This document shows, piece after piece, positions 27,645 to 31,141 of a DNA stretch of 64,000 bases (its first letter is position 1; the number at the start of each line of letters is the position of its first letter). Under the pieces are notes generated by a model. The model was given only the letters and a program-made list of their open reading frames with translations, did not search any database and was not told the DNA's origin. The stretch is from the IMG/VR virus record IMGVR_UViG_3300035698_018317, positions 124,001 through 188,000 of that record; one strand, written 5' to 3'. This DNA comes from a virus. The position numbers and the translations under genes are program-made.

Positions 27645-28130
27645 ATGGAAGAAATTAAAACAAAAGAAAAATGGACTTTCGAGATTGTAGACGTAAGCCC
27701 TGAACTTAAAGTAACTGTATTGGAATTGCCTAGCATAGAATATGAAGAAGAGGAATTATATTTCCAAGGCAAAAAGGTCTATAAGCCAATATTTTCAACT
27801 ACTCGTTGGATACCCTTTACAGTATCATTTGCTGAGTATTATGATATGGACATAAATGGTCTTTTTGAATGGATAAGTACATTCAACATGGGAATCGGCG
27901 ACGGAACAACTACTGGGGCAATAACCAGAACAGGCATCTTAAAATGCTCTAATGGCCAAGTTTGGGAAATAGAAAATATATGGCCTCAGTCAATCAATAC
28001 TTTAGCTGACTATTCTAACTCAGAGCCTTTAAAAATTGAATTAACATTTAGTTATTCACGGGCGAGAGTTGATTATTCTAATACCGAACCACAAAACAAT
28101 AAAATATCACTTAATTGGGATAACAAATAG
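27645..28130 (+). CDS. Tail tube-like protein, copy 4 (diverged)
   Basis: A 161-residue protein that keeps the tube-fold pattern at low identity: KWTFEIVDV, RWIPFTVSFAEYYDM, LFEWISTFNM, TGILKCSNGQVWEIENIWPQSIN and PLKIELTFSYSRA match in order the corresponding segments of copies 1-3. It is separated from them by 3.8 kb and sits directly upstream of the gp26 homologue. A baseplate-proximal tube initiator such as T4 gp48 or gp54 is an alternative reading. Confidence 0.7.
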   Translation: MEEIKTKEKWTFEIVDVSPELKVTVLELPSIEYEEEELYFQGKKVYKPIFSTTRWIPFTVSFAEYYDMDINGLFEWISTFNMGIGDGTTTGAITRTGILKCSNGQVWEIENIWPQSINTLADYSNSEPLKIELTFSYSRARVDYSNTEPQNNKISLNWDNK

Positions 28131-28139
28131 GAGAAAAAA

Positions 28140-29300
28140 ATGACAGAAGAAGTATATCAACCAAAGAGAGTGCCTATCAATCCAGACATTGTAGATACAC
28201 CAGAAATCCCTCAGAGCGAAGCCCTTGAGCCTACTGTAGAAACAATACGTCCTCCTCAAGCAGATGTAGAGCAGCCAGTGATACGTCCAGCAATGGCAGA
28301 AACAGGTATGGAGCTTAAAGGAAATATCCCTGTACAGTTCCAGAACGCCTTGTCAAATGCAAAAAAGGCAAAAAAAGAACAAGAGATTGTTGCCCCTGTC
28401 CCTGCACCTGACGCTGCTCCTGCTCCAGCGGTGGCACCACCAGCGGTATCGCAAGAAGTTCAGCCAAGTGTTCCGCCCGGAACTGTTAGGACTCTTGAAC
28501 AATTAATTCAAGGAATCCAAACTCGTTCTACTCTTTATGAAGAAATTACCCTTCCATCAAAAGGAAGGTTTTATGACGGCGATGATGGGCCACAAGATGG
28601 TGTAATCCGCATTCGACCGATGACAGGTGAAGAAGAACAGATTTTGGCTACCCCTAGATTTGTCAAAAAGGGTCAGGCAATTAATATGATATTTGACAGA
28701 TGTATGCAAGATGGTTTTCAGTCAGAAAGATTTATCACACCAGATAGAACATATATGTTGATTTATCTACGTGGTATTTCTTATACACCATCATATGACG
28801 TAGAAGTTAAATGCCCACAGTGTGACAGGAAATTTGCGACAGTCATAGATTTAAATGATTTATATGTTGAATCTTGCCCAGAAAATTTCTCAGCCACTAG
28901 TTTGAAGGATTCTCTTCCAACGACTGGTTATAACTTCACCTATCGTCTTTCGACTGGAACTGATGAACAAAGAGTTCAAGAGCATAGAGATAGAAAACTT
29001 AGAGGTGGATTTGAAACAAGCGGGCAAGCTGATGATACCCTGCTATTCCGCACAGCAATTATGGTAGAAGAAATAGAAGGGCTTACAGACAAAGACGAAC
29101 TACAAGCCCTGTTAAGAAAATTACCTATTAATGATGTGGCTTATTTAAGAACGGCTGTCAATGAGCCTCCATTTGGTGTAGACACCAAGGTTGAGATTCC
29201 TTGTCCGGGTTGTTTAGCAGATTTTGAAATAGAACTTCCCCTTGAATCAAATTTTTTCTTCCCAAAGGGCCGCAGGAAGACGCCGAACATGCGAGCGTAG
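28140..29300 (+). CDS. Baseplate hub assembly protein, gp26-like (T4_baseplate family)
   Basis: A 386-residue protein. The first 125 residues are Pro/Ala-rich and probably disordered. The conserved part begins at LPSKGRFYDGDDG and includes IRIRPMTGEEEQILATPRF, INMIFDRCM, MLIYLRGISYTPSYDVEV, then CPQC near residue 225 and CPGC near 357, a likely zinc site. This matches T4 gp26-type baseplate proteins. The last codons contain a C CCA AAG slippery site that can shift ribosomes into the gp51-like frame. AGGAGAAAAAA precedes the ATG. Confidence 0.85.
   Translation: MTEEVYQPKRVPINPDIVDTPEIPQSEALEPTVETIRPPQADVEQPVIRPAMAETGMELKGNIPVQFQNALSNAKKAKKEQEIVAPVPAPDAAPAPAVAPPAVSQEVQPSVPPGTVRTLEQLIQGIQTRSTLYEEITLPSKGRFYDGDDGPQDGVIRIRPMTGEEEQILATPRFVKKGQAINMIFDRCMQDGFQSERFITPDRTYMLIYLRGISYTPSYDVEVKCPQCDRKFATVIDLNDLYVESCPENFSATSLKDSLPTTGYNFTYRLSTGTDEQRVQEHRDRKLRGGFETSGQADDTLLFRTAIMVEEIEGLTDKDELQALLRKLPINDVAYLRTAVNEPPFGVDTKVEIPCPGCLADFEIELPLESNFFFPKGRRKTPNMRA
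29261..29267 (+). promoter_or_regulatory. Candidate -1 ribosomal frameshift site CCCAAAG
   Basis: The heptamer is in phase as C CCA AAG in the gp26 frame, the canonical X XXY YYZ form. A -1 slip gives CCC AAA GGG and continues as GPQEDAEHASVELWKNMMEE into the gp51-like frame with no stop. The shifted product would be about 448 residues. Confidence 0.65.
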
Positions 29301-29314
29301 AACTTTGGAAAAAT

Positions 29315-29485
29315 ATGATGGAAGAAATATTTTTCTTCCAATATCATTTGCATATGAGCAGAGCGGAAGCCTTCCATATGCCTGTGCATGAAAGAAAATG
29401 GTTGATTGATAGATTTATCGAACAAAAGCAAAAAGAAAATTCAGCCATGGAAGATTCAAGAAGAAGAGCAAAAAGAAAAACTTAA
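29315..29485 (+). CDS. Baseplate hub assembly protein, gp51-like
   Basis: From ATG 29315 this is a 56-residue protein: MMEEIFFFQYHLHMSRAEA, then ERKWLIDRFIEQKQ. This matches the short gp51-type proteins of T4-like phages. Its frame is open upstream to the CCCAAAG site inside gp26, and the intervening codons read as natural protein, so it may be made mainly as a gp26-gp51 fusion. No clear ribosome site precedes the ATG, which supports frameshifting. In T4, gp51 catalyses hub assembly. Confidence 0.7.
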   Translation: MMEEIFFFQYHLHMSRAEAFHMPVHERKWLIDRFIEQKQKENSAMEDSRRRAKRKT

Positions 29486-29518: not shown

Positions 29519-30256
29519 GTGGCTACAAAAGAAAGATATCAAAATCCAGTTGTTGGAGATAGTGTAAGATTAAAGCTATTTTCATTTAGGTCAAATAACA
29601 GAACGAATTTTAATTCTGTAGACAAAGTAGAAATATACTTCTTAGACCCTGTGGAAGTAACTGAAGAAAATCCAGAGGGTAGAAGATTAGTAGACACTCT
29701 AACAGGTGCTTCTATTGTTAATGTTGAAACAGGTCTATATGAAGTTACGGTAGCTCTGGAAGATACGAAATATACAATAGGAGATTATGTAGATGTGTGG
29801 TACGCCTACATAGAAGCAAATGATGACCTTTCTACTGTAGAGAATACATGGAAGATTTATCCTGATTTATTCTATACAAGTCCTCTTCCGATTGTATATG
29901 ATTTTTCGTTTGCATTTAGACCTAATAAGCTAAGACTTGGTTCCAAACAATATCTTATCATAGACATAGTTCCTAATGTAAGAAATGCTTCGGATTTAGC
30001 AAGATACTATGAAAATCTAGCTATTGTTTCTCCTTTGAAAATATCTATAACACAAGTCTGCGGTGAGTGTTTGCCAGCAGAGGAAGATTTAAGAGTAATT
30101 GCTGAAGAAGAGAATGTAGAATTCCGAGAAAAAGGAAGAGGATATTATTTCTTGGATACAGAAGACTGGACAGAAGGATTGTATGATGTCTGGTTTACTA
30201 TGGAGTTTGGTGGAAACACATATATTTCTAGTAAACAACAACTTCAAATATATTAA
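29519..30256 (+). CDS. Putative virion structural protein
   Basis: A 245-residue beta-rich protein (GTG start, AAGG eight bases upstream). Segments such as DKVEIYFLDPVEV, GLYEVTVALEDTKYTIGDYVDVWY and GLYDVWFTMEFGGNTYIS look like repeated Ig-like or baseplate beta domains. It is the last gene of the plus-strand hub unit, ended by a strong terminator. No T4 counterpart recognised. Confidence 0.65.
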   Translation: MATKERYQNPVVGDSVRLKLFSFRSNNRTNFNSVDKVEIYFLDPVEVTEENPEGRRLVDTLTGASIVNVETGLYEVTVALEDTKYTIGDYVDVWYAYIEANDDLSTVENTWKIYPDLFYTSPLPIVYDFSFAFRPNKLRLGSKQYLIIDIVPNVRNASDLARYYENLAIVSPLKISITQVCGECLPAEEDLRVIAEEENVEFREKGRGYYFLDTEDWTEGLYDVWFTMEFGGNTYISSKQQLQIY

Positions 30257-30328: not shown

Positions 30329-31141
30329 ATGGGAGCAACAACAACAGAGGGGTCCGGCGCTGGTTCAGCGGCAGGTGCATTAAGAGGTCTTACTTTAGAT
30401 AATTTACATAGAGTACTTGCCTCTGATGGTAAAAGTCCCTCTACTACAAATGACGGTTTACAATTCGTAAAAGAAATATTAAAAACAAGGACTGTTTCTG
30501 GTACTTCAATAACAGCCGGAAGTGATGATGAACTTATTATTATAACGGCTACTAGCGATGTAACCATTTCGCTTCCTGACCCAACAACCTTTACTGGTCA
30601 GGGATTTATTATAAAAAGAGCCAATAGTGCTACTAGTTCACTTACTTTATTACCAGTCGCCGGAAATATAGAGGGTGCTTCTAGTTGGCAAACTATACAT
30701 TCTAGAATTGGGATTCAAGTAATATCCACAGGAACAGAATGGGCAATTACTTCATGGTATCATCCTGATGAAAGTAGTGAATCGTCCGCTTATAAAGCGA
30801 TTATGTCTTCTGAGCTAAATTTCAAAACTATCGCAGATTATACACTGTATGTTGTTCCATCCGATAAAATATTTTTAATTGATTCGATGGAAATAATTAC
30901 TACCGCCATCACGGGTGCCGCCACTGCACCTACTATAAGATTCGGAAATAGTGTAGATAGAGATAAGAATTGGGGACCAACAATAACCACATCTAATACT
31001 TTTAATTTTAGACATGTTGTTAGCAATCCGCAACATGGTGCTGTAGCTGGAACGTCTATCTCGGGGGGGATAACTATTGGTAGTACAGCAACTACTCATT
31101 CTGGATACTTTGTAATCAGAGGCACTTTGCTTGATGTTTAA
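30329..31141 (+). CDS. Fibre-like protein sharing an N-terminal anchor
   Basis: A 270-residue protein starting MGATTTEGSGAGSAAGALRG. The same pattern opens the long fibre at 50350 (MGAQTTEGTGFGSAEGPIRG), so this is probably a shared virion-attachment segment. The rest is Thr/Ser/Ile-rich beta sequence as in fibre shafts and small receptor-binding domains. An AT box (CATATATAT) lies 4 nt before the ATG, with no ribosome site. It overlaps the end of the convergent gene at 31138 by 4 nt. Confidence 0.68.
   Translation: MGATTTEGSGAGSAAGALRGLTLDNLHRVLASDGKSPSTTNDGLQFVKEILKTRTVSGTSITAGSDDELIIITATSDVTISLPDPTTFTGQGFIIKRANSATSSLTLLPVAGNIEGASSWQTIHSRIGIQVISTGTEWAITSWYHPDESSESSAYKAIMSSELNFKTIADYTLYVVPSDKIFLIDSMEIITTAITGAATAPTIRFGNSVDRDKNWGPTITTSNTFNFRHVVSNPQHGAVAGTSISGGITIGSTATTHSGYFVIRGTLLDV

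Follow-up and report, generated by a model that had tools for sequence, protein, structure and literature searches.

A conserved T TTT TTC heptamer and a proposed −1 frameshift joining a gp26-like protein to a gp51-like tail in an IMG/VR virus

Genes and features of the locus

The window, by which we mean the whole stretch of DNA analysed, comprises 64,000 nt of the IMG/VR virus record IMGVR_UViG_3300035698_018317 (record positions 124,001 to 188,000). At the locus described here, a tail tube-like gene is followed by a gp26-like gene, the end of which (stop codon TAG, 29298-29300) is overlapped by an open −1 reading frame. Coordinates are given in Table 1. The gp26-like protein matched PF12322 with 60.6 bits, against a gathering cutoff of 24.5, and the baseplate hub family phrog_150 with an E-value of 8e-20, and is 45-81% identical to seven relatives. 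Two CPxC pairs (zinc-ribbon-like; window 28800-29230) are present in this protein and lost in loci L004 and L005, which carry DPDSD and NPYTL. A 245-aa protein without family match (window 29519-30256) lies 3′ of the tail ORF and is conserved there in several relatives (e.g. L004, L006, L008).

The tail genes are ordered sheath, tube, gp26-like and tape measure in LIS04, and sheath, tube, gp26-like and, in last place, a long putative tail gene in SP-15. In the genome studied here, we recognised no tape measure gene: the long ORFs of the window matched no tape-measure family, and the long tail gene of SP-15 (tape measure candidate), searched against this genome, remained unmatched. No nucleotide relatives were found among named phages.

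Table 1. Coordinates of the features discussed; positions are those of the window unless prefixed with a locus handle.
Feature	Position	Strand	Evidence or remark
Tail tube-like gene	27645..28130	+	phrog_4542 tail tube, E 1.1e-5; 9 nt upstream of the putative chaperone gene
gp26-like gene, 386 aa, proposed short form (TAC-N), 0-frame	28140..29300	+	PF12322 T4_baseplate, E 2.4e-16
T TTT TTC slippery heptamer, in phase, proposed −1 site	29252..29258	+	49/49 relatives and lowest codon entropy
C CCA AAG heptamer, in phase, possible accessory site	29261..29267	+	3/49 relatives
−1 reading frame, open	29246..29485	+	After TGA 29243-29245, to stop 29483-29485
C-terminal tail of the proposed fused long form, 75 aa, gp51-tail-like	29258..29482	+	phrog_20255 in 26/26 members
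+1-frame tail loci	L088:4769, L090:4706, L089:4727, L010:4757, L093:4754, L092:4745		

Conservation of the proposed slip site

Related loci were collected by IMG/VR scans and from one named huge-phage record, resulting in 84 usable loci, window included. For conservation counts, a non-redundant set of 49 loci with less than 90% identity to one another was used; the codon alignment of these 49 genes contained 98 columns conserved in amino acid.

Since 80 in-phase X XXY YYZ heptamers occur in the last 40 codons of the 178 window ORFs of at least 60 aa, a heptamer by itself carries little weight. The combination of a heptamer with an extension of at least 40 codons past the stop was found for the gp26-like gene and otherwise, among the ORFs listed, only for two small ones (66 and 104 aa) overlapping the gene at 30329-31141. 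The end of the gp26-like gene holds T TTT TTC, with C CCA AAG 9 nt further downstream, and two more in-phase canonical heptamers, A AAT TTT (29249) upstream and A AAG GGC (29264) overlapping C CCA AAG.

T TTT TTC is present in phase in every one of the 49 non-redundant relatives, two of which carry it one codon downstream in a longer run, and it is found even in genes where TTT is hardly used elsewhere. From the per-gene Phe codon use, the probability of this occurring by chance is about 1e-34 if the sequences are taken as independent, which they are not fully. The codons AAT TTT TTC TTC have the four lowest entropies among the 98 conserved columns, with AAT used for Asn371 in 44/46, TTT for Phe372 in 49/49, TTC for Phe373 in 47/49 and TTC for Phe374 in 48/49 sequences; eight other conserved Phe columns are mixtures of TTT and TTC, ranging from 33:13 to 25:24. 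Phe374 is also under constraint from the −1 frame, which reads through it, but for the invariant TTT of Phe372 slipperiness is the best explanation.

The sequence-only reading had placed the shift on C CCA AAG and had made no mention of T TTT TTC. The C CCA AAG heptamer is in phase as claimed, with ten sense codons between it and the stop. Even unaided by a stimulator, U_UUU_UUC and C_CCA_AAG each exceed 0.10% frameshifting in E. coli, and with one C_CCA_AAG is the most efficient heptamer in that host (PMC4066793). Its phase and its efficiency with a stimulator would speak for C CCA AAG as the main source of the fusion, which we nevertheless regard as very unlikely: the heptamer is kept in only three of the 49 relatives (the window, L004 and L006) and replaced by CCCAAGG, CCCACGG, CCCTCGG etc. 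elsewhere, Pro375 (the CCA of the heptamer) is encoded by all four codons (CCA, CCT, CCC, CCG) with its third base unconstrained, and a stimulator was not seen. C CCA AAG cannot be the general mechanism, and its loss in relatives, which the sequence-only reading had itself named as a refuting outcome, argues against it as the site in use; it may provide a second chance to slip in this phage and a few relatives. Products of the two sites would both have 448 residues and differ solely at residue 374, which would be Leu for the U site and Phe for the C site.

When 12 relatives were folded as single sequences, no conserved downstream stem-loop emerged, with z-scores scattered around 0. U UUU UUC seems not to rely on a conserved RNA structure.

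The conserved element being a T run, which is extended to T8 in two relatives, the fusion might alternatively be made from mRNA with an extra base, following slippage of RNA polymerase on the T6 run. With six T's and a terminal C, the run is short for transcriptional slippage, and the heptamer keeps its phase with respect to the codons, something that such slippage does not require; of the explanations considered, this one seems to us the least likely.

Evidence for translation of the −1 frame

The sequence-only reading had described the −1 frame at this junction as open and as encoding GPQEDAEHASVELWKNMMEE..., which proved correct for the window. The frame is open in the relatives as well: it continues past the 0-frame stop in 49/49 loci, by 155-206 nt. 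An origin of the frame change in sequencing errors was considered and rejected, as it is present in 49 non-redundant loci.

The tail might be a separate small protein, started by reinitiation at the ATG codons at 29315 or 29318 and never fused. ATG codons precede the conserved FFFQYH core in 26 of the 49 loci, window included, and cyanophage gp51 is annotated as a gene of its own, both of which would be in keeping with such a protein. However, a start codon (ATG, GTG or TTG) is missing before the core in 14/49 loci, a Shine-Dalgarno sequence of at least 4 nt precedes it in only 4/49, and the two window ATGs have no Shine-Dalgarno match longer than GGA, in line with the earlier remark that a stand-alone gp51 start has no ribosome site. 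In 19/49 loci, only 7 nt of open −1 frame precede the FFF codons, too few for an upstream start, so that this frame can be entered only by a shift or at a start further down. The latter is opposed by a protein-type conservation upstream of the ATG: across the LWxxL stretch, which lies past the 0-frame stop but ahead of the first ATG, the entropies of the three −1 frame positions are 1.25/0.48/1.51, a periodicity which implies translation in the −1 frame and hence entry upstream of the ATG. Separate translation also leaves the synonymous freeze of TTT TTC TTC unexplained, and we consider it slightly less probable than a main role of C CCA AAG. The fused frame is under purifying selection.

Relation of the two parts to T4 gp26 and gp51

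The family PF12322/phrog_150 includes T4 gp26 as well as the first 201 residues of T4 gp51, so the short form is homologous to both. T4 gp51 consists of a gp26-like domain followed by a C-terminal tail of about 50 residues. At the level of whole-protein profiles, the gp26-like family and gp51 gave a probability of only 4, though both match PF12322. A predicted structure (pLDDT 67) retrieved no significant fold from the PDB, the HK97 tail assembly chaperone (TAC; 2ob9) appearing only at an E-value of 2.8.

For the tail, direct profile comparison between the window and T4 gp51 gave no match. The HMM of the window-clade tail matches the tails of SP-15, Mel-JY01, L010 and LIS04 (E-values of 3e-11 to 7e-8, with SP-15 at 3e-11); a profile of nine intermediate tails matches the cyanophage tail with a probability of 94 and the T4 tail with a probability of 88; and hhalign aligns the −1 tails of gp26 genes from cyanophages and Aeromonas phages with the C-terminus of T4 gp51 at a probability of 98 and an E-value of 5.5e-14. 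As the window-clade tail has no direct T4 match, its designation as gp51-like, made in the sequence-only reading, is supported only through intermediates: the link to the C-terminal ~50 residues of T4 gp51 exists by way of the tails of other phages and fails in the direct comparison.

Distribution among other phages

T TTT TTY with a −1 tail ends gp26 in cyanophages, in T4-like phages of Aeromonas, Vibrio, Cronobacter and Rhizobium, and in jumbo phages. T TTT TTC stands 10 nt before the gp26 stop and is followed by a −1 tail in 29/29 non-redundant cyanophage and Aeromonas loci; two of these 29 tails are short, at least one because the contig ends. Individually, T TTT TTC with a −1 tail ends gp26 in P-SSM5, S13, phiAS5 and LG08, as does TTTTTTT in VmeM-32, again 10 nt ahead of the stop; XacN1, RAS14 and Atu_ph07 likewise combine T TTT TTC/T and a −1 tail. 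In a cyanophage locus (L105:2693-2866), the annotated gp51 has an ATG that closely follows the gp26 stop (TAAGTATG), so that both reinitiation and frameshifting may occur there.

SP-15, LIS04, GXN1, Mel-JY01 and the metagenomic loci L092 and L010 are arranged differently, the tail being encoded in the +1 (= −2) frame instead; a −2 or a +1 frameshift is possible in these phages. A CC CGA TTY motif near the stop is common to SP-15, LIS04 and GXN1.

Genes 26 and 51 are divergent in T4 and 44RR, and T4 is unable to use this frameshift because the two genes lie on opposite strands. The T4 gene 26 ends in GAG TTC TTT GAG, with neither a slippery run nor a −1 tail. The T4 locus (L097:3803-5229) has, in place of a frameshift, what looks like a duplication and fusion, with gp51 made of a 26-like domain plus the tail.

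Discussion

We propose, with a probability of about 0.88, that the locus encodes a TAC pair of the lambda G/GT type, whose short and long forms are produced by −1 frameshifting on U UUU UUC. In the proposed mechanism, most ribosomes would read the gp26-like gene to its stop and yield the short form of 386 residues, whereas a minority would shift back by one base at U UUU UUC and go on in the −1 frame. The resulting long form would have 448 residues (373+75), the last 75 being a gp51-type tail, and its junction would read ...ESNFF/LPKGPQED... If the analogy with lambda gpG/gpGT holds, one would expect the short form to cover the tape measure protein and the long form to bring in tail tube subunits by means of its tail. 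Slippage and its rate, the use of T TTT TTC and the chaperone function are inferred. The placement of the gp26-like gene directly behind the tail tube gene, and in LIS04 between tube and tape measure, speaks for this reading. Against it speak the negative folding result, the ATG codons before the core in 26/49 loci, the unrecognised tape measure gene, the non-significant fold search and the +1-frame tails of several wider relatives. The sequence-only reading had already proposed a −1 frameshift fusion of the gp26-like protein to the tail in the lambda manner; that proposal is supported, with the slip site moved to T TTT TTC.

Lambda gpG/gpGT, the subject of work by Levin in 1993 and by Xu, Hendrix and Duda in 2004, reportedly exemplifies a conserved tail-assembly-chaperone frameshift. 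The present locus resembles it in its proposed short and long forms with a common N-domain, in a proposed −1 heptamer slip near the end of the first ORF, and in lying among the tail genes, behind that for the tail tube; it differs in the protein family, here PF12322 (T4 gp26/gp51), and in the heptamer, here U UUU UUC. With T4 gp26/gp51 it shares the PF12322 N-domain, and T4 gp51 combines this domain with a C-terminal tail that is linked through intermediates to the −1 tail described here; unlike the two divergent genes of T4, of which gp51 is a fused paralogue, it would use one gene and a frameshift. A parallel in layout is found in the cyanophage and Aeromonas/Vibrio T4-like phages with gp26 and a short gp51, which likewise have T TTT TTC and the tail in the −1 frame, but their tail sequences are only remotely related to that of the window, and the P-SSM5 annotation gives the tail a gene and an ATG of its own. 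Cyanophage and vibriophage gp51 lack the first ~200 residues (PMC3037559), which fits a frameshift tail. The TAC of Vandenendeviridae/Andersonviridae (phage Adele, PMC12846349) also shows a −1 shift on a T run at the TAC-N end and an open −1 frame in all genomes; there the run is GTTTTT and the phage lineage a different one.

The sequence-only reading knew of no described case of T4 type. Such cases are not wholly undescribed: according to the accounts in PMC10885494 and PMC12846349, Vladimirov, Gautam and Davidson (2022) named T4-like TAC genes. The former, drawing on that work, mentions a short copy together with a fused long copy in some T4-like phages, and the latter, citing it, slippery poly-T stretches within the TAC-N genes that T4-like phages carry.

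In public annotations, the gp26-like gene and the gp51-like piece are listed as separate genes, or the second is missed. The conserved heptamer supplies a simple annotation rule, and NFFLPK versus NFFFPK a precise test peptide.

According to PMC5009743, conservation of the lambda-type frameshift extends across long-tailed phages "except T4". On balance, we lean towards the view that U UUU UUY frameshifting at the end of gp26 is ancestral to the T4-like superfamily, from cyanophages to huge phages, and that in T4 and its near relatives its place was taken by a duplication of gene 26, in which one copy (gp51) acquired the tail by fusion and the slip site was lost. If this is true, T4 is a derived exception to tail-chaperone frameshifting; the finding would offer an explanation for why T4 seemed exceptional, and place it within a superfamily in which frameshifting otherwise seems to be the rule.
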